DNA from: an uncultured Anaerolineae bacterium
GTDB taxonomy: Bacteria; Chloroflexota; Anaerolineae; JACIWP01
Assembly (NCBI GenBank): GCA_938049385.1
Contig: CALIBQ010000046.1
Location: forward strand, 1 to 42,834
Length of the DNA stretch: 42,834 nt
Direction of reading: 5' to 3'
Below are positions 2,718 to 37,892 of the stretch, piece after piece. Numbering within the stretch: the stretch's first letter is position 1; every line of letters starts with the position of its first letter. A program made the translations under genes and the position numbers. The notes below the pieces were generated by a model. The model saw only the letters and a list, made by a program, of their open reading frames with translations, was not told the origin of the DNA and searched no databases.

Positions 2718-3953
2718 ATGGACAAGCCGTTGCCCAACATCATCTATCTCGATAACGCGGCCACCTCCTGGCCCAAGCCGGCCGGCGTGGCCCAGGCCGT
2801 TGCCGATTTCATCAACTACCTGGGCGCCAATCCCGGCCGCTCCGGCCACCGCCTCTCCACTGCCGCCGCCGAACTGGTGTATGATACCCGCTCCCTGCTG
2901 GCGGAGATGTTCGGCGCCGAGGACCCCCTGCGCGTGGTCTTCTGCAAGAACGTCACCGAGGCTCTGAACACGGTTCTGCGCGGGCTTCTGCGGCCCGGCG
3001 ACCATGTGGTCACGGGAAGCCTGGAACACAATTCTGTGATGCGGCCCTTGCGCGCCCTGGAGCGCCAGGGGGTGGAGCTGACAGCAGTGCCGGCCTCGCC
3101 GGCCGGCCTCTTCCGGCCGAGCGATTTCGAGCGGGCACTGCGCCCCAACACCCGGCTGATTGTGCTCAATCATGCCTCGAACGTGGTGGGCACGCTGGCC
3201 CCGGTGCGGGAGGTGGGTCAGATCGCCCGGGAGCACGGGGTTTGGCTGGCCGTGGACGCGGCGCAAACCGCCGGCGTGTATCCGATCCATATGCCGGCGG
3301 ACAACATCGACATCCTGTGCTTCACCGGCCATAAGGGACTGCTGGGACCGCAGGGCACTGGCGGCTTTATCCTGGGAGAACGGGTGCCGGACGATGCCAT
3401 TGAGCCGCTGACGCGAGGAGGGACGGGAAGCCGCTCCGAAGAAGAGCACCAGCCCGATTTTCTGCCCGATCGTTTCGAGAGCGGCACCTTGAACGCCGCC
3501 GGCATCGCCGGCCTGAAAGCCGGTCTGGAATTTCTGCGGCGGGAGGGCATCGCAAAGGTGCGCGCCCATGAGGTGGCGCTGACACGCCGCTTGCTCGACG
3601 GCCTGCGCGCCATCGCCGGCGTGCAGATATACGGCACGCGCGACCCAGCATACCAGGTTGCCGTGGTCTCATTCAACATCGCCGGCATGTACCCCTCGGA
3701 GGCGGCGCTGGCCCTGGATGAGGAGTTCGGCATCATGTGTCGGGTGGGACTGCACTGTGCGCCGGCGGCCCACCGGACTATCGGCACGTTCCCCCAGGGC
3801 ACTATCCGCTTCAGCCCCGGCTATTTCAACACGCCGGCGGAGATTGACCAAGCGTTGGAGGCCGTGGAAGCATTGGCCCGGCGCGCCCATACCCCTACAT
3901 ACCAGGTTGTGAATCGGGAAAGGAGCGTGTATGATGACAGAGAAAATCGTTGA
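2718..3953 (+). CDS. Cysteine desulfurase family protein (SufS-like, selenium-operon type)
   Basis: This 411-residue class V aminotransferase-fold protein is PLP dependent. 'FTGHKGLLG' carries the PLP lysine (K206), 'VDAAQTAG' (from 180) holds the cofactor-binding Asp and Gln, and 'RVGLHCAPA' holds the catalytic Cys (C347). Such enzymes pull sulfur from cysteine or selenium from selenocysteine. I chose ATG 2718 because GGAGGGAGG sits just upstream; an in-frame ATG at 2661 would add 19 residues with no ribosome site and overlaps the promoter. The 3' end overlaps yedF by 23 bases. Position ahead of yedF, DUF3343 and selD matches the subgroup typified by Enterococcus EF2568, so its inferred job is to deliver reduced selenium to SelD or to a labile-selenium cofactor. 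Sulfur-only activity cannot be excluded. Confidence 0.9.
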   Translation: MDKPLPNIIYLDNAATSWPKPAGVAQAVADFINYLGANPGRSGHRLSTAAAELVYDTRSLLAEMFGAEDPLRVVFCKNVTEALNTVLRGLLRPGDHVVTGSLEHNSVMRPLRALERQGVELTAVPASPAGLFRPSDFERALRPNTRLIVLNHASNVVGTLAPVREVGQIAREHGVWLAVDAAQTAGVYPIHMPADNIDILCFTGHKGLLGPQGTGGFILGERVPDDAIEPLTRGGTGSRSEEEHQPDFLPDRFESGTLNAAGIAGLKAGLEFLRREGIAKVRAHEVALTRRLLDGLRAIAGVQIYGTRDPAYQVAVVSFNIAGMYPSEAALALDEEFGIMCRVGLHCAPAAHRTIGTFPQGTIRFSPGYFNTPAEIDQALEAVEALARRAHTPTYQVVNRERSVYDDRENR

Positions 3954-4536
3954 TGCCCGTGGGCTGGCATGCCCCCAGCCGGTCATCATGGCACGCAACG
4001 CCATGCGGGAAGGTGCAGTACGCATCACCGTCATTGTGGACAGCGAGACGGCGGTGGCCAACGTGACGCGCATGGCCCAGAAAGCCGGCTGGCAGGTCGC
4101 CCAGGAACGCCGCGACAACGAGGTGCACCTGCGTTTGACCCCGCCGGCCGCGACTGCGGAACAGCCCCAGGAAGCCCCCGCGTCAGCGCCGGCGCCCGCC
4201 GGCCCCACCGTCCTGCTGGTGAAATCGAACCGTATGGGCCGTGGGGACGACCAGCTCGGCGAAATCCTTATCCGCGGTTTCTTCCACACCCTCACCGAGA
4301 TAGAGGATGCGCCGGCAGTTATGATCTTCCTTAACAGCGGCGTGAAGCTGACCACCGAAGGCTCACCTGTGCTGGACGACCTGCGCGCGTTGGAGGAACG
4401 CGGGGTGGAAATATATTCCTGCGGCACCTGCCTGAATTACTTCGGCCTGACGGAGTCGCTCAAAGTAGGTGCGGTGTCCAACATGTACTCCATCGCGGAG
4501 ACACTGCTTTCCGCCGGCAAGGTCATTTCGCCGTAA
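3931..4536 (+). CDS. yedF: Selenium metabolism protein YedF (TusA domain + DsrE-like domain)
   Basis: This 201-residue protein has two domains. Residues 1-70 are a TusA/SirA-like domain with the 'LACPQPV' signature (C14), which carries a persulfide or perselenide. A Pro/Ala linker (about 71-92) leads to a DsrE-like domain with 'SCGTCLNYFG' (C164, C167). This arrangement defines the selenium-metabolism YedF family. AGGAG at 3921-3925 precedes tandem ATGs at 3931 and 3934. The gene overlaps the desulfurase end and is followed 18 bases later by the DUF3343 gene. The likely role is selenium transfer between the desulfurase and SelD or the selenium-dependent hydroxylase pathway. That role is proposed from comparative genomics and is not shown by this sequence. 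Confidence 0.92.
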   Translation: MMTEKIVDARGLACPQPVIMARNAMREGAVRITVIVDSETAVANVTRMAQKAGWQVAQERRDNEVHLRLTPPAATAEQPQEAPASAPAPAGPTVLLVKSNRMGRGDDQLGEILIRGFFHTLTEIEDAPAVMIFLNSGVKLTTEGSPVLDDLRALEERGVEIYSCGTCLNYFGLTESLKVGAVSNMYSIAETLLSAGKVISP

Positions 4537-4554
4537 CGGCATGAAGGGATAGCC

Positions 4555-4779
4555 ATGTCAACGCAGTACGGCGTGGTGCTGTTCGATTCGACCCAGCGGG
4601 CCATCCAGGCGGAGCGAGCGCTCAAAGCCGCCGGCCTGCTGGTGAAGCTGATCCCGGTGCCCCGCCAGATCAGCTCGGACTGCGGGGTCTGCCTTCGCTT
4701 TCTCTGGCAGGACCACTCTCGGGTGGAGGAGGTTCTGCGCGATCACCGGGTAGCGTTCGCCGGCATCCGGCAGTTATAA
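4555..4779 (+). CDS. DUF3343 protein, putative Se/S carrier
   Basis: A 74-residue protein starts 'MSTQYGVVLFDST' and contains 'SSDCGVCLRF' (C43, C46), the Cys pattern of the DUF3343 family. In other genomes the family lies next to YedF and SelD and is thought to carry selenium or sulfur on its cysteines. The start at 4555 follows GAAGGGA. SelD begins 27 bases after the stop, so the four genes form one transcription unit. The biochemical role is inferred from neighbourhood. Confidence 0.88.
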   Translation: MSTQYGVVLFDSTQRAIQAERALKAAGLLVKLIPVPRQISSDCGVCLRFLWQDHSRVEEVLRDHRVAFAGIRQL

Positions 4780-4806
4780 TCGCTTGACAGGATATTGAGG
4801 AGAGAA

Positions 4807-5883
4807 ATGGGCGTTTCATCGTACACCATCCACAACCGCAACGGCCGGCCGGTGCGCCTGACCGAGCTGGCCAGTTGCGCTGGTTGAGCGGGCAAGACAG
4901 GTCCGGGGGACCTGGAGCGTCTTGTCCAGCCGCTGAAGCACCTTTTCCAGCCGGCCGACTTCCCTGACCTGCTGGTCGGGCTGGGATCGCCCGACGACGC
5001 GGCAGTCTACCGGCTGGACGAACAGCGCGCCCTGGTGCAGACGCTGGACTTCTTCCCACCAGTGGTGGATGACCCGTACACTTTCGGCGCCGTCGCCGCG
5101 GCCAACGCCATGAGCGACGTCTACGCCATGGGCGGTGAAGTGCTGTTCGCGCTCAACATCGCGGCGTTCCCCAGATGGCTGGATCGGGCCATCCTGGCGG
5201 AAATACTGCGCGGCGGGGCGGAAAAGGTGCGGGAGGCCGGCGCGGCCATCGCCGGTGGGCATACCATTGACGATGATGAACCGAAATACGGGCTGACCGT
5301 CACGGGCATCGTCCTCATCTCCGAACTGATGACCAAGGCCGGCGCGCGGGCCGGCGATCAGCTCTTCCTGACCAAGCCATTGGGCACCGGCCTGATCACC
5401 ACCGCCGCCAAGGGAGGCGCCGCTGAGCCAAAACACATGGAAGGCGCGGTGCAGTGCATGCTCCAGCTCAACCGCGCGGCGTCGCGCGCCGCGCGCTCGG
5501 CCGGCGTGCGCTCTGCCACGGACATTACCGGCTTCTCTCTGCTGGGACATGCCGCGGAGATGGCCGCCGCCTCGGGGGTACAGCTACGTATCTACCTGGA
5601 GCGACTTCCCATCTTGGAAGGGACGCGGCAGTATGCGGAAGAGTGGTTATTCCCTGGTGGGGCGCACAGCAATCGGGAGTTTTTCGCGCCGCGGGTGCAG
5701 TTCGCCGGCGGTATCAGCGAGGAAGAGCAAATGATGCTCTTCACCCCGGAGACCTCCGGCGGATTACTGCTGGCGGTACCGGCGGACAAAGTGGAGGTGT
5801 TTCTGCAGAACTGCCGCTCTCTCGAACAGCCGGCCTGGCACATCGGGGAGGTTGTGCCGGGATCAGGGATTGTGGTGGAATAA
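4807..5883 (+). CDS. selD: Selenide, water dikinase SelD, a selenocysteine-containing form
   Basis: SelD makes selenophosphate from selenide and ATP. The gene starts at ATG 4807 after GAGGAGAG and must read through an in-frame TGA at 4885-4887, giving 358 residues with Sec at position 27. The local sequence 'ASCAGUAGKTGP' aligns with the family's catalytic Cys/Sec and the essential Lys three residues later (K30), corresponding to Cys17 and Lys20 of E. coli SelD. Downstream, 'GSPDDAAVY', 'AANAMSDVYAMGG', 'GGHTIDDDEPKYG' and 'TDITGFSLLGHA' are standard SelD ATP- and metal-binding motifs in one unbroken frame. A standard gene caller would start at 5035 and lose the first 76 residues including the active site. 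A hairpin directly after the TGA supports recoding. A sequencing error is unlikely because the TGA sits exactly at the Sec position. Confidence 0.95.
4885..4927 (+). promoter_or_regulatory. Sec codon TGA and bacterial SECIS hairpin in selD
   Basis: TGA is at 4885-4887. The arm at 4890-4898 pairs with 4919-4927 over nine positions (one G-U), then AGGTCC (4899-4904) pairs perfectly with GGACCT (4908-4913). The apical loop GGG is at 4905-4907, and five bases (4914-4918) bulge on the 3' side. The loop starts 18 bases after the TGA and is G-rich, as expected for a SelB-binding bacterial SECIS. Pairing was done by hand. Confidence 0.85.
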
Positions 5884-12970: not shown

Positions 12971-14035
12971 ATGTTCCGCATCCTGGCCATTAACCCTGGT
13001 TCCACCTCCACCAAGATCGCCGTTTATGAGGACGAGACACCGCTTTTCACCGAAGTCATCCACCACGACGCGCAGGAACTGGCAAAGTATACCCGCATCT
13101 TTGACCAATATCTCTTGCGCAGGGACGCGGTCCTGAACGCTCTCCAGCGCCACAACATCCCCATCACTTCCCTGCATGCGGTCGTCGGGCGGGGCGGTCT
13201 CCTGCGGCCGATTGAGAGCGGCACCTACCTGGTCAATGAGCGCATGCTGGCTGACCTGCAGGCCCCTAAGGAGCGCGAGCATGCCTCGAACCTGGGAGCG
13301 GTCATCGCCCACGAGATTGCCGTACAAGCCGGCGTCTCCGCGTACATCGTCGACCCGGTCTGCGTAGACGAGTTCGACGATATCGCCCGCATCTCCGGCT
13401 TGCCGGAGATCGAGCGCAAGTCCCTTTCCCACGCGCTGAACATGAAGGCTATGGGCCGGCGCGCCGGCAAAGACCTGGGCAAACCGTATCATGAGCTGAA
13501 CCTGGTCATCGCCCATATGGGCGGCGGCATCTCGGTCAGCGCCCACCGCAAAGGCCGGATGGTGGACGTGAACCAGGCGCTGGATGGGACCGGGCCGTTC
13601 AGCCCGGAGCGTGCCGGCGGCCTGCCTGTCGGCGACCTGGTGCGTATGTGCTACTCCGGCAAGTACACCTACGAGCAGATGATGCGCAAAATCGTGGGTC
13701 AGGGCGGGCTGGTGGCCCACCTGGGCACCAACAACGCCGCCGAGGTGGAACGCCGCATCCTGGCCGGCGACGACCATGCCCGGCTTATCTATGAGGCGAT
13801 GGCCTATCAAATCGCTAAGGAAATCGGCCTGGCCGCCACCGTGCTGTACGGCCAGGTGGATGCCATTGTGCTCACCGGCGGCCTGGCGCATTCGGACATG
13901 CTCATCAACTGGATCCGGCCCAGGGTGGAATGGATCGCGCCGGTGCTCATATATCCGGGCGAGGACGAACTGCTGGCCATGACCCAGGGCGTCCTGCGCG
14001 TCCTGCGGGGCGAGGAGCCGGCGAAAGAATATTGA
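12971..14035 (+). CDS. buk: Butyrate kinase
   Basis: This 354-residue acetokinase-family enzyme makes butyrate and ATP from butyryl phosphate. 'LAINPGSTSTKIAVYED' is the N-terminal phosphate loop, 'AVVGRGGLLRPIESGTY' and 'VIAHMGGGISVSAHRKG' are Buk signatures, and 'DAIVLTGGLAHSD' is the second nucleotide-binding loop. Length and motifs fit Buk better than acetate kinase, which is near 400 residues. AGGAG precedes ATG 12971. No phosphotransbutyrylase (ptb) is adjacent; that gene is expected elsewhere. Branched-chain acyl phosphates are possible alternative substrates. It indicates fermentative or acyl-CoA-degrading metabolism. Confidence 0.93.
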   Translation: MFRILAINPGSTSTKIAVYEDETPLFTEVIHHDAQELAKYTRIFDQYLLRRDAVLNALQRHNIPITSLHAVVGRGGLLRPIESGTYLVNERMLADLQAPKEREHASNLGAVIAHEIAVQAGVSAYIVDPVCVDEFDDIARISGLPEIERKSLSHALNMKAMGRRAGKDLGKPYHELNLVIAHMGGGISVSAHRKGRMVDVNQALDGTGPFSPERAGGLPVGDLVRMCYSGKYTYEQMMRKIVGQGGLVAHLGTNNAAEVERRILAGDDHARLIYEAMAYQIAKEIGLAATVLYGQVDAIVLTGGLAHSDMLINWIRPRVEWIAPVLIYPGEDELLAMTQGVLRVLRGEEPAKEY

Positions 14036-14124: not shown

Positions 14125-14538
14125 ATGACCCAGGAAGCAGAGCCAAAGGCCGCACGACAGCCCGTCATCCTCTGCATCGAGGACGAGCCGGAGATGATCG
14201 ATTTGATCCGGCTGATACTGGAACGCCGGGGCTATAAGGTCCTGGGAGCGATCGGAGGTGAAGAGGGCATCAAAGCCCTGGAAGGCCAGGTGCCAGACCT
14301 CATCCTGCTGGACCTGATGATGCCCGATATTGACGGGTGGGAGGTGTTCCGGCAGGTGCGGGCCAACCCGCGCCTTCAGCATGTCCCGGTGGTGGTGGTC
14401 ACTGCCAAGGCGCAGTCCATTGATAAGGTGCTGGGTCTGCACATCGCCAAGGTAGATGATTACATCACGAAACCCTTTGGGCCTCAGGAACTGATCGAGG
14501 CGGTGGAGCGGGTGTTGAGCCGGCAGGCCGCTTCCTGA
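14125..14538 (+). CDS. Single-domain response regulator (CheY-like receiver)
   Basis: A 137-residue protein consists only of a receiver domain. The acidic pair is E19/D20, the phosphoacceptor is D63 in 'LILLDLMMPDIDG', the switch Thr is T93 ('VVVTAKA') and the conserved Lys is K116 ('YITKPFGP'). There is no output domain, so it acts by protein contact or in a phosphorelay. GAGGAAA precedes ATG 14125. No histidine kinase is adjacent. It converges on the osmC gene with 15 bases between stop codons. Confidence 0.93.
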   Translation: MTQEAEPKAARQPVILCIEDEPEMIDLIRLILERRGYKVLGAIGGEEGIKALEGQVPDLILLDLMMPDIDGWEVFRQVRANPRLQHVPVVVVTAKAQSIDKVLGLHIAKVDDYITKPFGPQELIEAVERVLSRQAAS

Positions 14539-14553
14539 ACCGCACCGCACGCA

Positions 14554-14991
14554 TCAGGAGGTCATGCCGGCGTCTTCCCCTTCATCCACACAAAGCTCCT
14601 CGCGGAAGGAGACCGGCCCGCGCAGGATATGGTGCACCTCACAGGTACGGGCAGAGTTGTAGAGAATGCGCTGTTCGCGCGGGCTGAAGCTCGATGACAG
14701 GTGAATCGTATTTTCAAATGTAACGCCGCCCCGGCCATCCGGGGCGGTTTGCATGCGCACAACCACGGAGAAGCCGCCGGCCGGCATCCCCTTCGCGGCG
14801 GCGACCGCCGCCATGGTCAGCACCATTCAGGAGGCCAGCGCCACACCGATCAGCTCCACCGGGCATAAGCCGGCGCCGTGTTCCGCCACCTCGGTTTTGC
14901 GCCGCACCAGCAACTGCCGGCCGGCAAGCTCCACCAGGGCCTCGCCGGCCGGCGTAAGAGTCGCCCGTACCTCTCGCCTTTCCCACTCCAT
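14554..14991 (-). CDS. OsmC-family peroxidase, selenoprotein (Sec at the peroxidatic position)
   Basis: OsmC/Ohr proteins reduce organic hydroperoxides with a reactive Cys and a second resolving Cys. Starting at ATG 14991-14989, the frame reads 'CPVELIGVALAS', then TGA at 14829-14827, then 'MVLTMAAVAAAKG'. The TGA falls exactly where the family has its peroxidatic Cys ('ALAxC'), so it encodes Sec55; the second Cys is C117 in 'NSARTCEVHHIL'. Read through, the protein is 145 residues, normal for OsmC. A caller that stops at TGA would report only 90 residues from 14826. A GC hairpin with a GGTC loop follows the TGA. The gene begins 31 bases after gcvH; I see no clear ribosome site, so coupling is likely. 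Sec incorporation is inference from alignment and hairpin, but the position match is compelling. Confidence 0.9.
14797..14829 (-). promoter_or_regulatory. Sec codon TGA and candidate SECIS hairpin in osmC
   Basis: On the minus strand TGA (14829-14827) is followed 14 bases later by GGCGGC (14812-14807), loop GGTC (14806-14803) and GCCGCC (14802-14797). The loop begins 21 bases after the TGA and has the GGU motif seen in SelB-bound loops. The six-bp stem is strong, but this region is GC-rich, so the match is less specific than in selD. Confidence 0.65.
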
Positions 14992-15022
14992 GAAGCCGCT
15001 GTCGCCGCAGATGAGATTACTG

Positions 15023-15445
15023 TTACTTGCCGTATTTCGCCCGTTCCGCGGCGATGAATTCCGCGAAGGCCGGGTCTCCCGGCTTCATCAGCTTGTCCAG
15101 CTCCGCAGGGTCCGAGACCTCGATTTTCACCAGCCAGCCGGCGCCGTACGGGTCATGGTTGATCTGCGTGCTCTCCCATTCCAGCTCTTCATTGGCGGCC
15201 ACAATCTTGCCGCTGACCACCGCTTTGATGCGGCCAACCCACTTGCCTGATTCCATGGACATGAAAGGCTCGCCCTGCTTGACCTCACGCCCCTTGCGCG
15301 GGACTTCCACGTAGACGATCTCGCCGGCCAAGCTCTGACCGAAATCGGTCAATCCCTGCGTCACTACCGAGCCCTCCACGCGCGCCCAATTATGCTCGCG
15401 GTCATACAGCAGGTCGTCGGGGAATTTGTACTGGTCAATGTTCAT
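15023..15445 (-). CDS. GcvH-like lipoyl carrier protein
   Basis: This 140-residue protein belongs to the glycine-cleavage H-protein family. 'MSMESGKWVGRIKA' carries the predicted lipoylated lysine (K68), 'REHNWARVEGSVVTQGLTDFGQ' matches the N-terminal part and 'DPYGAGWLVKIEVSD' the C-terminal part. Around the lysine it has ESGKWVG rather than the ESVKAVS common in true GcvH, and no gcvT or gcvP is near. Its partner is OsmC, 31 bases downstream. The inferred job is to carry dihydrolipoyl reducing power to that peroxidase rather than to serve glycine cleavage, although a dual role is possible. AAGGAG precedes ATG 15445-15443. MerR lies 112 bases upstream on the same strand. Confidence 0.85.
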   Translation of the reverse strand: MNIDQYKFPDDLLYDREHNWARVEGSVVTQGLTDFGQSLAGEIVYVEVPRKGREVKQGEPFMSMESGKWVGRIKAVVSGKIVAANEELEWESTQINHDPYGAGWLVKIEVSDPAELDKLMKPGDPAFAEFIAAERAKYGK

Positions 15446-15557
15446 GGCGTGCTCCTTTTCCAGGGTACTGTAATGTGGAGAAAACGAACGCCTTTGTGGT
15501 CAGGGAGACCGAACCGCGCGCTCAGATGCCAGCACAGGAGGCGGCACAAAAGCCCTG

Positions 15558-16004
15558 TCACGGCAGATCAGCACTCTGCTCATCCATGCGGCGCAGTTCC
15601 TGCTCATCCAGCAAGCGCTCACGCGCTTGCTGGTAGACACTGCAGGTGTGGCACTTCTGTTCCTGCCGGCAGGTCATCGAAGCGATGGCCCAGCACGGCG
15701 TGGTGCGATCCCGGCGCGCTTCACAATTCTGATACTGCTCGGGAGGACAGCCGCGGATCTCCCAGCAGGGCATCAGTGCCAACAGCCGGCGGATGCCCTC
15801 CTGATTGAGCCCCTGTTCATGAATAAGGTAGCGAATACAGCGGATCCAGCGCAAATCGTTGTTGGAGTAAATGCGACGATTGTTGCGGCGCGCAGGTTTG
15901 ATCAAGCCGGCGGCCTCATAGAGACGCAGTGTCCGCGGATGGACGCCCAACAGCTCTGCCGCGGTGGCGATGGTGTAAACCGGGCGGTTATCCTTACTGC
16001 TCAT
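15558..16004 (-). CDS. MerR-family regulator with Cys-rich (two-CW type) tail
   Basis: A 148-residue regulator starts at ATG 16004-16002 after GGGGGAAG; the open frame reaches upstream to 16100 but that part includes the promoter. Residues ~8-75 form a MerR DNA-binding domain ('IATAAELLGVHPRTLRLYEAAGLIKP', 'RIYSNNDLRWIRCIRYL'), close to the HspR-like branch. The C-terminal half holds 'PCWEIRGCPP', 'QNCEA', 'PCWAIASMTC' and 'CHTCSVY', the repeated CW/C pattern of the two-CW type, which probably binds a metal or Fe-S cluster or forms disulfides. It is the first gene of the gcvH-osmC unit, so redox- or peroxide-responsive control of that module is a reasonable inference. Confidence 0.85.
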   Translation of the reverse strand: MSSKDNRPVYTIATAAELLGVHPRTLRLYEAAGLIKPARRNNRRIYSNNDLRWIRCIRYLIHEQGLNQEGIRRLLALMPCWEIRGCPPEQYQNCEARRDRTTPCWAIASMTCRQEQKCHTCSVYQQARERLLDEQELRRMDEQSADLP

Positions 16005-16058
16005 AGCAATCTTCCCCCTCCGATTATCCCCCACCAGGTCAGACCGATACACAAAATT

Positions 16059-16087
16059 ATTATAGCACTGAGTGTCAATATTGTCAA
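16059..16087 (-). promoter_or_regulatory. Consensus promoter and possible MerR operator upstream of merR-gcvH-osmC
   Basis: On the minus strand a perfect -35 TTGACA (16087-16082) and a perfect -10 TATAAT (16064-16059) have a 17-base spacer. The spacer holds a second TTGACA and the dyad CACTCAGTG. Such a dyad between -35 and -10 is where MerR proteins bind, although they usually prefer 19-20-base spacers. The start codon is about 55 bases downstream. Confidence 0.75.
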
Positions 16088-33425: not shown

Positions 33426-34862
33426 ATGGCCCTGCAGAGCAATTACGTGATGTACCTGACCCCCCAGTTCCGCAAGCTGTCCGACGACCAGTTGGCGCAG
33501 ATTCACAACGCCAGCCTGGAAATCCTGGACCGCACCGGCGTGTGCCTGTACGAGGAGGAGGCGCTGAACCTGCTGAAAAAGGCCGGCGTCAAGGTCGAGG
33601 ACGGCAACCGCGTGCGCATCCCACCCGGATTGGTCGAATGGGCCCTTTCCATCGCTCCCAAGCGCGTTGTGCTGTGCGACCGCAGCGGCCGGCGCGTCAT
33701 GCCGCTGGAGCGCAACAACGTGTTCTTCGGGCCAGGTTCCGACTGCCCTAACATTTTGGACCACCGCACCGGGGAACGCCGGCGCGGCACCCTGCGCGAT
33801 ATCGAAGAAGGCATCCGCCTCTGCGATGCCCTGCCCAACATTGATTTTCTCATGTCCATCTGCATCGCTTCCGACATTGACCAGCAGGTGGCCGACCGCT
33901 ACCAGATGCGCGCCATGCTGATGAACAGCACCAAGCCCATCCTCTTCGTCACCACCGAGTTTGAGGGCACGGTGGATGCCATCAAGATGGCCGAGGCAGT
34001 CGCCGGCGGCGAGGAGGAACTGCGCCGCAACCCCATCTGCGCCCTGTACATCAACGTCACCTCGCCGCTCCGCCATAACACCGAGGCCCTGCAGAAACTG
34101 CTCTTTATGGCCGGCAAAGGCCTGCCCACGACCTATACCCCGGTCGTCCTGCGCGGCATCAACGGGCCGGTGACGCCTGCCGGCGCGCTGGCCCTGGCCA
34201 ACGCCGGCGAGCTGGCCGGCCTGGTCATCGCCCAGCTCAAACGGGAGGGCGCGCCCATCATCCTCAGCGGCGGCACCAACGATATGCTCGACATGCGCAC
34301 CCTCGGCGACGTGTACGCCGCGCCGGAAAACCGCGTCATGTTCGTCGAGATGGCCCATTATTACGGCCTGCCGGTCTTCGGCCTGGGCGGCGCCAGCGAT
34401 TCCAAGCTCCCCGATGAGCAGGCGGCGGCCGAGGCGGCCTTCTCGCTCATCCTGGAGACACTGGCCGGCACCCACCTGGTGCACGATGTGGGCTACCTGG
34501 AATCGGGCATGACCAACTCCTTCGAGCAAATCGTTATCTGCGACGAGCTGATCAACTACGTCAAACGCTTTATGCAGGGCCTGGTGGTGAACGAGGAAAC
34601 CCTGGCGCTGGACCTGATCGACCAGGTAGGGCCGCACGGCGAATTCCTGGGCACGGAGCACACCGCCCGGCATTATAAAGAGGACTGGTACCCGCGCCTA
34701 CTGGACCGCAGTGATTTCGATACCTGGAAGGCCACCGGCGGCAAGACCCTGCGCCAGCGCGCCCGCGAGCGGGTAGAAGAAATCCTCTCCAGCCACCGGC
34801 CGGAACCCCTGCCGAAGGACGTGCAGGCCAAGATTGATGCCATCGTGGAAGGAGCGCGTTGA
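33426..34862 (+). CDS. Non-pyrrolysine MttB-family corrinoid methyltransferase
   Basis: This 478-residue protein belongs to the trimethylamine methyltransferase (MttB/COG5598) superfamily, which moves methyl groups from quaternary amines to a corrinoid protein. Markers include 'LEILDRTGVCLYEEEAL', 'GPGSDCPNILDHRTGERR', 'PVFGLGGASDSKLPDEQAA' and 'HDVGYLESGMTNSFEQIVICDE'. No stop of any kind interrupts the frame, so there is no pyrrolysine; members without it, such as MtgB, act on glycine betaine, carnitine or proline betaine rather than trimethylamine. The substrate is not predictable. GAAGGAGACGACC precedes ATG 33426. No corrinoid protein (MttC) or MtrH-like partner is adjacent. Confidence 0.9.
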   Translation: MALQSNYVMYLTPQFRKLSDDQLAQIHNASLEILDRTGVCLYEEEALNLLKKAGVKVEDGNRVRIPPGLVEWALSIAPKRVVLCDRSGRRVMPLERNNVFFGPGSDCPNILDHRTGERRRGTLRDIEEGIRLCDALPNIDFLMSICIASDIDQQVADRYQMRAMLMNSTKPILFVTTEFEGTVDAIKMAEAVAGGEEELRRNPICALYINVTSPLRHNTEALQKLLFMAGKGLPTTYTPVVLRGINGPVTPAGALALANAGELAGLVIAQLKREGAPIILSGGTNDMLDMRTLGDVYAAPENRVMFVEMAHYYGLPVFGLGGASDSKLPDEQAAAEAAFSLILETLAGTHLVHDVGYLESGMTNSFEQIVICDELINYVKRFMQGLVVNEETLALDLIDQVGPHGEFLGTEHTARHYKEDWYPRLLDRSDFDTWKATGGKTLRQRARERVEEILSSHRPEPLPKDVQAKIDAIVEGAR

Positions 34863-34870
34863 TAAGGGCG

Positions 34871-35036
34871 GATGTTGAAAAAGCTCATCGCCTGTTAGTT
34901 GAAACTGCGGCTACGCCCCGAAGTCGGCGCAGGCCGACTTCGCAAAGCCTGCGCAGGCAGGCTTTGCAGTTGTTGCTATGGCTTCAGCCGCCAGGCCGCT
35001 CTTCCACAGATTGTATGTGTGGACTTTTTCAACATC
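34871..35036. mobile_element. MITE-like element (13-bp terminal inverted repeats, no transposase)
   Basis: GATGTTGAAAAAG (34871-34883) and CTTTTTCAACATC (35024-35036) are perfect inverted ends of a 166-bp non-coding element. The inside holds two tandem hairpins: CGAAGTCGG/CCGACTTCG (34919-34942) and CAAAGCCTGC/GCAGGCTTTG (34943-34966), both with a GCGCAGG-type centre. I could not see a clear target-site duplication. It separates mttB from the hydroxylase gene and may affect expression of the latter. Confidence 0.6.
34941..34997 (+). repeat. Dispersed repeat, copy B (GCGCAGGC-core hairpin)
   Basis: This matches copy A at 12754-12808: 21 of the first 25 bases, then GTTG, GGCTTC and a CCGCCAGGC-like tail. 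Here it lies inside the MITE-like element. Confidence 0.6.
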
Positions 35037-35120
35037 TTCATAGGGGATGCTTCACCGGCCAAGTGCCTGGAGCTGATAGAACCGCGTGAATCTGACGAAC
35101 GAGGTGCACGACAAGCACAT

Positions 35121-37892
35121 ATGGCAGAGATTCGGTTCCTCCTGAACGGACAGGAAGTGACGTATACGGGCGACCCGGGGCGCAGTCTGCTGTACGTCCT
35201 GCGCGAGGATTTCGATGTTACCGGCCCCAAGCAGGCCTGTGACGGCGAGGGGGAGTGCGGCGCCTGCGCAGTCCTGCTGGATGGGGAAGCGGTGCGCTCC
35301 TGCCTGATACCGATGGGAAAGGTCGCCGGCCGGCGGGTCATCACCATCGAAGGCCTGGGCAGTGATGACCGTCTGCACCCGCTTCAGCAGGCCTTTATCG
35401 AGTACGGCGCGGTCCAGTGCGGCTACTGCACCCCGGGCATGATCATCTCCGCCGCGGCGCTCTTACTGCGCGACCCGCGCCCCAGCCGACAGCGCATCCT
35501 GGAAGAGCTAGGCGGAAACCTCTGCCGCTGTACCGGCTACAATACCATTATCGCGGCGGTGGAAGCGGCCGCCGCCATGATGCGGGGCGAGACGCCACCA
35601 CCGCCGGCCCTGCCCTATCACGCCGACGGCCGGCCGTACAGCGCGCCCATTATCGGCAAACGCCTGACCCGCGTCGACGCCGTCGAAAAGGTCACCGGCA
35701 AAGCCCGTTACGCCGAGGACATCAAAATGCCCGGCATGCTCTACGCCGCTATTACCCGCAGTCCCCATCCGCATGCGAAGGTCCGGCGGATTGACACGAC
35801 GCCGGCGGAGCGCATGCCCGGCGTGGTCAAAGTGCTGACCGCACAGGATATCCCCGGCCACAACGACCTGGACGACTACAGCCTGGACGAACATGTCCTG
35901 GCCGCCCCCGGCGATTCGGTGCGCATGATCGGCGATGCGGTGGCCGTTGTGGTGGCCGAGACGATGGAACGAGCGCGCGCTGCCGCGGACGCGGTGCAAG
36001 TAGAATATGAGCCTTTGCGCCATACGTTCGACCAGGAGGAGGCGCTGTCGCCCGATTTCCCGCCCATCCACGCCGGCGGCAACATCCTGGATACCTACGA
36101 GATTCACTTCGGAGAGCTGGAGCCGGCCATGGCTCGGGCCGACTTGCATCTCGAGACGCAGTACGAGACCGTCTTCCTGGAACATTCGGCGCTGGAACGG
36201 GAAACGGTGGTGGGCTATTGGGATGAGAACGGGGTGCTGACGCTCATCGCCGGCACGCAGGAGCCGCATTGGGTGCGCGATTACACCGCTTGGGCCATGG
36301 GCCTGCCGCCGGAGAAAGTGCGCGTGATCACGCCGCCCATGGGTGGGGCCTTCGGCGGAAAGCAGGACCCCTGGCCGGTCATCGCCGGCGCGCTGGCGGC
36401 CTACTATGTGCGCCGGCCAGTGCGGCTGGCCTACACCCGCCACGAGTCCTTCAACGCCTCCCCAAAGCGGCACCCGTACCGCATGCGCTATCGGGTTGGC
36501 GCCCGCCGGGACGGCAGTCTGACCGGCCTGCACCTGCGCATCCTGGCCAACACCGGCGCCTATGACTCCGCCGGCCGCTGGATCCCGCAGTACGCCCTGG
36601 TCGCCGGCGGCGGCCCGTACCGTTGGGAGGCCGTGGACGCCGTGTGCCATGCCATCTACACCAACGGGCCAAAGGCCGGCCAGATGCGCGGCTACGGCAC
36701 CCCGCAGTCCATGTTCGCCCTGGAGTGCACCCTGGACGAGCTGGCAGAGCGGCTGGGCATAGACCCTCTGGAACTGCGCCTGCGCAACGCCCTGGACGGC
36801 CAGACAACCACGTTCCTGGGCTATCCGCCGGCGGAGACCTTCGCCTACCGCGAGTGTTTGGAGTCCATCCGCCCGCATTACCAGGCCGCGCTGGCCGCGG
36901 CAGAGGAATACAACCGCCGGCATGCCGGCACCCCCTGGCGGCGCGGGGTGGGCCTGGCCGGCATGTGGTACCGCTTCGGCAAATCGGGCGACCCCCGCTG
37001 TCCGGCCGAAGCGGAACTGCGGGAGGACGGCACCTTGGCCTTCTACTTCTCCGCGCCGGATTACGGCCAGGGCACCAGTACTGTGATGTTGCAACTGGCG
37101 GCCGAGACGCTGGGCATCCCGGCAGATTACCTGGAATTCGTCAATGCCGACACCGGCTTGACCCCCGACAGCGGCATTCAGGGCGCCTCGCGCAGTACCT
37201 ACTGGGTAGGCGGCGCGGTGCATCAGGCGGCCAAGACACTGAGGGAGCAGATTTTCGCCATGGCCGCCGAGATGCTGGAGGCGCCGCCGGATCAGCTCAC
37301 CCTCACGCCGGCGAGCGTGAAGGGTCCGAACGGCCAAGAGGTTGCCCTGGCAGAAATCGCCCGGCAGATGAAGCGCGCCGGCTGGCCTCTGCGCGTGCGC
37401 GGTGTCTTTGTCCCCAATCCCACGCTCCCCAAAGAGCGCCCGGAGTACCTGCCCTTCTTTGCCACCGGCGTGCAGTTCGCCGAGGTGGACGTGAACATCG
37501 AGACCGGCGAGGTGAAGGTAGCGCGCATGGTGGCGGTGCACGACGTGGGACGCGCCATCAATCCCCAGAGCGTGCTGGGCCAGATTGAAGGCGCCATCGT
37601 CATGGGAATGGGGGCCGCACTGGAGGAGGAATTCATCCCCGGCGTCAGCACGGGCTTCAGTAATTACAACCTGCCGGTGGCAGTCGAGGTCCCCAAAATC
37701 GAGGTGTACCTGGTGGAAGTGGCCAGCAACTGGGGGCCGATGGGTGCCAAAGGGCTGGGCGAGATGGCCATCCTGGCCTCGACGCCGGCCATCATCAACG
37801 GCATCTACCGTGCCTGCGGCGGGCGGGTGCGCAGACTGCCGGCCACCCCCGAACGCGTGCGCCAGGCCATCCGGGAGGCGCACAAGCGATAA
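35121..37892 (+). CDS. Mop-type molybdenum hydroxylase (fused 2x[2Fe-2S] and Moco domains)
   Basis: This 923-residue enzyme has the layout of Desulfovibrio aldehyde oxidoreductase Mop. Residues 1-75 are a plant-type [2Fe-2S] domain (C40, C46, C49, C61). Residues ~80-160 are the helical [2Fe-2S] domain (C100, C103, C135, C137). The Moco domain follows ('GGAFGGKQDPW', 'GQMRGYGTPQSMFALE'), with the catalytic Glu in 'AKGLGEMAIL'. There is no FAD domain, so electrons leave via the Fe-S centres. Selenium-dependent molybdenum hydroxylases share this architecture, and the Se genes at 2.7-5.9 kb make that subtype plausible. The substrate (aldehyde, purine or N-heterocycle) is unknown. I start at ATG 35121; the longer open frame from 34899 runs through the MITE. 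Confidence 0.9.
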   Translation: MAEIRFLLNGQEVTYTGDPGRSLLYVLREDFDVTGPKQACDGEGECGACAVLLDGEAVRSCLIPMGKVAGRRVITIEGLGSDDRLHPLQQAFIEYGAVQCGYCTPGMIISAAALLLRDPRPSRQRILEELGGNLCRCTGYNTIIAAVEAAAAMMRGETPPPPALPYHADGRPYSAPIIGKRLTRVDAVEKVTGKARYAEDIKMPGMLYAAITRSPHPHAKVRRIDTTPAERMPGVVKVLTAQDIPGHNDLDDYSLDEHVLAAPGDSVRMIGDAVAVVVAETMERARAAADAVQVEYEPLRHTFDQEEALSPDFPPIHAGGNILDTYEIHFGELEPAMARADLHLETQYETVFLEHSALERETVVGYWDENGVLTLIAGTQEPHWVRDYTAWAMGLPPEKVRVITPPMGGAFGGKQDPWPVIAGALAAYYVRRPVRLAYTRHESFNASPKRHPYRMRYRVGARRDGSLTGLHLRILANTGAYDSAGRWIPQYALVAGGGPYRWEAVDAVCHAIYTNGPKAGQMRGYGTPQSMFALECTLDELAERLGIDPLELRLRNALDGQTTTFLGYPPAETFAYRECLESIRPHYQAALAAAEEYNRRHAGTPWRRGVGLAGMWYRFGKSGDPRCPAEAELREDGTLAFYFSAPDYGQGTSTVMLQLAAETLGIPADYLEFVNADTGLTPDSGIQGASRSTYWVGGAVHQAAKTLREQIFAMAAEMLEAPPDQLTLTPASVKGPNGQEVALAEIARQMKRAGWPLRVRGVFVPNPTLPKERPEYLPFFATGVQFAEVDVNIETGEVKVARMVAVHDVGRAINPQSVLGQIEGAIVMGMGAALEEEFIPGVSTGFSNYNLPVAVEVPKIEVYLVEVASNWGPMGAKGLGEMAILASTPAIINGIYRACGGRVRRLPATPERVRQAIREAHKR

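Follow-up and report, generated by a model that had tools for sequence, protein, structure and literature searches.

Introduction

Protein-bound lipoate is known mainly from the 2-oxoacid dehydrogenases, the glycine cleavage system and sHdr sulfur oxidation. Here we describe a locus that may add a selenium-dependent use of this cofactor, found in a 42,834-nucleotide stretch of DNA from an uncultured Anaerolineae bacterium (contig CALIBQ010000046.1; hereafter the window). On the minus strand of the window, downstream of one promoter and all in the same direction, lie genes for a MerR-family regulator, a GcvH-like lipoyl carrier (GcvH2) and an OsmC-family protein with an in-frame TGA, which we read as selenocysteine (Sec) and refer to as Sec-OsmC. 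In two phyla the genes for Sec-OsmC, GcvH2, a lipoate ligase and a membrane redox complex are linked, which suggests an as yet undescribed selenium redox system driven by lipoate; in the open-access literature we found no paper that brought together lipoate and DsrK, or GcvH, HdrD and OsmC, or that described the module.

Each component resembles something already described. OsmC-fold enzymes reduce hydroperoxides by means of a cysteine pair, and Ohr draws the electrons from lipoylated proteins (PMC4486171, PMC5962072); OsmC is cited, in a passage of the former, as using the same donors. Sec-OsmC shares with these peroxidases the fold, the positions of the peroxidatic and resolving residues and, in the case of Ohr, a presumed lipoyl reductant, but it would use Sec in place of Cys, and its electrons would come from a distinct GcvH-like carrier that has a ligase of its own, not from the E2 and Lpd components of 2-oxoacid dehydrogenases. 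A Sec-containing OsmC-like protein was catalogued from ocean metagenomes (Sargasso Sea and GOS) in 2005 and 2008 (PMC1088965, PMC2398784) and again in a 2026 review (PMC13188914), the entries in these sources listing it without a role. The marine proteins likewise belong to the PF02566 family, encode Sec by TGA and have a hairpin downstream, but their motif is UxxT, whereas the proteins considered here have UxxxT and the Cys of a CPxEL motif and are part of a lipoyl module in both Chloroflexota and Desulfobacterota; it is by motif and context that the two are set apart here.

The carrier and its membrane partners also have precedents. The sHdr-LbpA-sLpl sulfur-oxidation system (PMC6067878, PMC10332631) similarly combines a GcvH-like carrier that does not serve glycine cleavage, a co-inherited lipoate ligase and an Hdr partner of the CCG type. 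It differs in that the LbpA cysteines are absent from the GcvH2 of Chloroflexota, that NarI/DsrM-like and HdrD/DsrK-like proteins stand in place of sHdr, and that Sec-OsmC is present. Complexes of the HdrDE, DsrMK and TfrAB types pair a NarI-like cytochrome b with a CCG/4Fe-4S thiol-disulfide protein, as the genes described below would do, although the scores obtained here fall far below the equivalog cut-offs and the substrate that we propose is protein-bound lipoate.

Results and discussion

Evidence for selenocysteine in OsmC

The OsmC gene (14554..14991, minus strand) encodes 145 amino acids, with TGA at codon 55 (14827..14829). When the TGA is read through, the product matches PF02566 at 1.7e-10 (41.6 bits, gathering cut-off 27.5) and yields an AlphaFold2 model with a predicted local distance difference test (pLDDT) score of 86.6. 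Nearly all of the top 50 PDB matches of this model are Ohr or OsmC proteins, with template-modeling (TM) scores of about 0.5, the model being of one chain of a swapped dimer, and the best of them include Ohr crystallized with dihydrolipoamide (6ebd, 6ebg). Residue 55 aligns with the peroxidatic Cys. Because both Sec/Cys55 and Cys117 (14641..14643), the candidate resolving residue, are invariant in our two alignments (A1 and A4), the peroxidatic and resolving positions of the OsmC/Ohr family are both filled; Cys43 of the CPxEL motif (14863..14865) is found in 15 of the 16 sequences in A4.

We surveyed 60 genomes of the class and found orthologues in 11, ten with TGA at this column and one (G045) with Cys. 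A second scan, of named genomes, recovered 15 loci from Chloroflexota and Desulfobacterota, several of them records of the first set, and all 15 had TGA. With three further Desulfobacterota, the TGA form is found in a grand total of 21 genomes from two phyla. The part of the gene beyond the TGA is under purifying selection, with a ratio of nonsynonymous to synonymous substitution rates (dN/dS) of 0.05 between the window and a sister species (G002).

Thirteen nucleotides downstream of the TGA begins a hairpin resembling a Sec insertion sequence (SECIS), with a 7-bp stem and a GGTC loop (14796..14813, minus strand). Its single-sequence fold was unremarkable (z −0.57), and we therefore relied on covariation, comparing 21 sequences (20 distinct) with 500 shuffles, a procedure that ignores relatedness. 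Paired cells amounted to 85.7% as opposed to 72.9% after shuffling, and covariation was 0.317 as opposed to 0.114, a level reached in 0 of the 500 shuffles. Of most weight is a pair between columns 21 and 30, both of them third codon positions. It takes a standard form in all 21 sequences (U-A, G-C, A-U or U-G), and the G-C and U-A forms both occur within Chloroflexota; in the Cys copy (L012) the same pair is a T-T mismatch. An Rfam scan of the window at gathering cut-offs gave no match.

The genome also encodes the machinery for Sec, with SelB (373 bits), SelA (595 bits), tRNA-Sec, the product of selC (69 bits), and SelD. We conclude with high confidence that the OsmC TGA encodes Sec. The first-pass annotation, made from the window's sequence alone, had proposed a frame broken by TGA exactly at the peroxidatic Cys, Sec at that codon and a GGTC-loop hairpin after it, and had called for a check of homologues at residue 55 and of Sec genes elsewhere in the genome; the comparative data bear out each proposal, with Cys or Sec at residue 55 in the homologues and SelA to SelD all encoded.

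The selD gene lies in the window itself (4807..5883, plus strand; TIGR00476, 369 bits, cut-off 125) and has its own in-frame TGA (4885-4887) at a GUxxK motif. Upstream of it (2718..4779) are genes for a cysteine desulfurase family protein, YedF and an Se/S carrier (TIGR01977 and TIGR03527 over cut-off; PF11823, 2.7e-22), so that 2718-5883 forms a selenium-use cluster.

A predicted lipoyl carrier separate from glycine cleavage

The gene preceding OsmC (15023..15445, minus strand) encodes GcvH2, which matches PF01597 (GCV_H) at 1.9e-35. Its Lys68 (15242..15244) aligns with the lipoylated Lys of the ES-x-K site in solved H proteins, making it the predicted lipoylation site, and this Lys is conserved in 27 of 27 GcvH2 sequences. 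GcvH2 thus shares its fold and lipoyl Lys with the GcvH of glycine cleavage, but it forms a separate clade (support 100/100) that spans Chloroflexota and Desulfobacterota, and its lipoyl-site signature is ESGKW[VL]G (27/27) rather than the ESVK of canonical GcvH (19/19). No GcvT or GcvP gene is near GcvH2. Those genes, GcvPA/PB and a fusion of SHMT with GcvT, adjoin the gene for the other GcvH on contig C45 of the genome that carries the window (G000). The separate clade and the canonical operon on C45 rule out GcvH2 as the true glycine-cleavage H protein; the description of it as an H-protein homologue with a lipoylation-type Lys and no glycine-cleavage partners was accurate.

Membership of the LbpA/sHdr group can likewise be rejected: GcvH2 shares with LbpA the strict conservation of the lipoyl Lys, but the two defining Cys residues, near the N and C termini of LbpA, are absent. 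None of the 20 Chloroflexota copies of GcvH2 contains any Cys, and the six Desulfobacterota copies and the outlying G032 copy contain one.

Linkage of Sec-OsmC to a lipoyl module

Genes of the GcvH2 clade are accompanied by genes for a lipoate-protein ligase (LplA type, with a C-terminal domain), for a cytochrome b resembling NarI/DsrM and for a CCG iron-sulfur protein resembling HdrD/TfrB/DsrK; HdrA and HdrB are sometimes present as well. These maps were drawn with a composition-based gene caller, which splits Sec genes and misses some. The models closest to the HdrD-like protein are TfrB, LdhH and DsrK (TfrB 171, cut-off 385; DsrK 104, cut-off 400). In G000 the NarI-like, HdrD-like and LplA genes overlap in one operon on another contig than the window (C36), and the other half of the module is therefore present in the same genome.

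Elsewhere the halves lie together. Genes for the NarI-like cytochrome b, the HdrD-like protein, GcvH2, LplA and Sec-OsmC form one contiguous run in G446 (L117), two loci (L119 and L123) have the order gcvH2-lplA-OsmC, and four Desulfobacterota loci (L124, L125, L126 and L160) have the same gene set in other order. Sec-OsmC closely follows lplA in seven genomes (G003, G004, G009, G044, G447, G448 and G450) and follows it after about 240 bp in G049. Altogether, the Sec-OsmC gene adjoins gcvH2, lplA, an HdrD-like gene or a cytochrome b gene in 18 of the 21 Sec-OsmC genomes. Upstream of the module in two Desulfobacterota loci we also observed transketolase genes of the E1 dehydrogenase type and a FAD-oxidase C-terminal domain (L125:26-2709, L124:3-578), whose products might supply the lipoyl carrier with electrons.

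The components are also co-inherited. Among the 60 genomes, with genomes or families treated as independent, GcvH2 was present in 10 of the 11 OsmC genomes (p = 2.5e-6; by family, 7/7 versus 11/42, p 1.2e-5), and GcvH2 co-occurred with LplA in 17 of 17 (p 4e-13). Neighborhoods across relatives are thus non-random, and the coupling of lipoyl carrier and OsmC that had been predicted from the window is supported by context, since Sec-OsmC often follows lplA and all five genes are contiguous in one genome.

Proposed mechanism and alternatives

With moderate confidence, we propose a conserved lipoyl-selenium redox module, one half of which lies in the window: lipoyl-GcvH2 would reduce Sec-OsmC, and an Hdr-like complex would link the lipoyl arm to the quinone pool. 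The scheme builds on the ability of Ohr to take electrons from lipoylated proteins and on Ohr being the best match of the Sec-OsmC model. The co-inherited LplA would lipoylate GcvH2 on Lys68. Sec55 would attack the oxidant, most likely an organic hydroperoxide, and the oxidized Sec55 would be resolved by Cys117 (or Cys43) as a selenenylsulfide, which dihydrolipoyl-GcvH2 would then reduce, restoring Sec-OsmC. The lipoyl arm would exchange electrons with the HdrD/TfrB/DsrK-like CCG iron-sulfur protein and, through the NarI/DsrM-like cytochrome b, with the quinone pool, HdrAB-type proteins perhaps taking part in some relatives.

A bolder form of this proposal is a quinone-linked peroxide reductase of anaerobes, in which electrons would run from menaquinol through cytochrome b, the CCG iron-sulfur protein and lipoyl-GcvH2 to a Sec-OsmC peroxidase. 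We put this forward tentatively; if true, protein-bound lipoate with its own ligase would have a further role, joining the respiratory chain to hydroperoxide removal. More generally, the module would be a further lipoyl system, one that spans two phyla and has a carrier clade, ligase and Hdr-like partner of its own, would give a functional setting to a Sec-OsmC family so far catalogued without a role in the sources that list it, and would suggest a possible joint use of lipoate and selenium by anaerobes against hydroperoxides or other oxidants.

Several observations weigh against the proposed module. The potential of dihydrolipoyl (about −290 mV) lies below that of menaquinol (about −75 mV), and at these standard potentials electrons would have to move uphill from quinol to the lipoyl arm unless drawn on by peroxide; the Hdr-like complex may therefore normally oxidize dihydrolipoyl, Sec-OsmC being a second outlet. 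The catalytic pair of Ohr (Arg19 and Glu51 in XfOhr) is not strictly matched, there being a Glu46 in most rows and no strictly invariant Arg before the Sec. OsmC has no adjacent partners in G014 (a short contig), G015 and G050, nor in its Cys form in G045. A 400-genome sample of the phylum returned only the window's own OsmC, compared with 11 of 60 earlier, a weak negative given the sampling and the first-look filter; the gene is thus either patchy or was lost by the search filter. Finally, Sec-OsmC was not detected in 7 of the 17 carrier genomes, which implies that the carrier and Hdr-like core also have another role. The suggestion that the GcvH homologue is a dedicated donor to OsmC consequently has to be given up: its constant partner is the lipoate ligase, usually with HdrD/DsrK-like genes.

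These same seven genomes, which have carrier and ligase and as a rule HdrD-like genes too, suit an alternative that we regard as possible but doubtful, namely a dihydrolipoyl-oxidizing or sulfur module. GcvH2 would bring electrons or sulfane sulfur of metabolic origin to the HdrD/NarI-like complex and quinone, much as LbpA does for sHdr, and the substrate of Sec-OsmC would be the lipoyl arm itself, in persulfide, sulfenate or mixed-disulfide form, instead of a free hydroperoxide. The potentials favor flow from dihydrolipoyl to menaquinone, the HdrD-like protein is nearest to the TfrB, LdhH and DsrK models, the E1-type and FAD-oxidase genes of L125 and L124 lie upstream, and LbpA supplies a precedent (PMC6067878). 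However, the 20 Chloroflexota GcvH2 proteins lack any Cys, unlike LbpA, the architecture is DsrMK/HdrDE-like and not that of sHdr, and OsmC/Ohr proteins of known chemistry are, in the accounts drawn on here, peroxidases.

It is distinctly unlikely that Sec-OsmC is simply a seleno-peroxidase to which thioredoxin or other thiols supply the electrons, with its lipoyl neighbors belonging to a general redox or lipoate-protection regulon and no direct electron transfer between them. The unlinked OsmC copies of G014, G015 and G050 would fit such an arrangement, as would the Sec-thioredoxins encoded in several of these genomes, but the same linkage recurs in 18 of 21 genomes from two phyla, and several lplA genes end only tens of bases ahead of OsmC.

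That the TGA is a true stop, leaving a pseudogene or a split OsmC that restarts at an ATG beside it, is extremely improbable: many copies do have an ATG directly after the TGA and automatic gene calling yields two open reading frames, but several copies have no such ATG, and the conservation over two phyla, purifying selection past the TGA, synonymous covariation, Cys version in G045 and complete Sec machinery all speak against it. A pseudogene or frameshift is ruled out by conservation of the TGA column, hairpin covariation and dN/dS, and the hairpin and selection evidence argues against a chance gene.

MerR regulator, promoter and neighboring genes

The first gene of the locus (15558..16004, minus strand) encodes a MerR-family protein (Pfam MerR_1, 4.6e-18) with a helix-turn-helix that resembles HspR (below cut-off) and a Cys-rich tail. 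The first-pass annotation had called it a two-CW MerR; the family assignment stands and the CW motifs are visible by eye, but the match to NF045718 is sub-threshold (15.6 bits, cut-off 35). Full-length relatives, 58–93% identical, are found in G002, G003, G015, G027, G041 and G050, and a 75% identical fragment in G049. The MerR loci of G003, G041, G050 and G049 also hold a thioredoxin with the motif SN[TG]USAC, a predicted Sec-thioredoxin, which places MerR near redox selenoprotein genes in 6 of 8 genomes. The MerR protein probably controls the GcvH2/Sec-OsmC locus and may, as the first-pass annotation supposed, sense stress through its cysteines.

Upstream, a perfect sigma-70-type promoter on the minus strand (TTGACA-N17-TATAAT, 16059..16087, 12/12 match, extended −10) was confirmed as predicted, its hexamers being conserved in G002 together with the gene order. 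The arrangement of MerR, GcvH and OsmC genes as a three-gene unit occurs in both species and is confined to one genus, of which a third genome (G001) has yielded no GcvH2 and no Sec-OsmC. An inverted repeat in the promoter spacer, CACTCAGTG (16066..16074, minus strand), is conserved between G000 and G002 and may be the MerR operator, a function that is a guess.

The predicted Sec-thioredoxins (SN[TG]USAC) appear to be membrane-anchored and lie at L185:4761-5201, at about 4776 in L186, at L187:4602-5033 and on the reverse strand of L190. In L187 a small predicted open reading frame with in-frame TGA (5604-5804; VSTUMGEACNAG) and no Pfam match adjoins a CsoR-like gene and the Sec-thioredoxin, and near the G049 MerR fragment L190:1-739 (minus strand) has a Sec site like that of formate dehydrogenase (RIUHSSTVAALAESFGRGAMTN), a name given from the sequence only. 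Elsewhere in the window, a butyrate-kinase-like gene and a response-regulator receiver gene (12971-14035 and 14125-14538, plus strand) are convergent with the OsmC operon, in the same order in G002. Two genes at 33426-37892 (plus strand) were named from the starts of their sequences only: one is probably trimethylamine-methyltransferase-like (MttB family), the other iron-sulfur activation-type.
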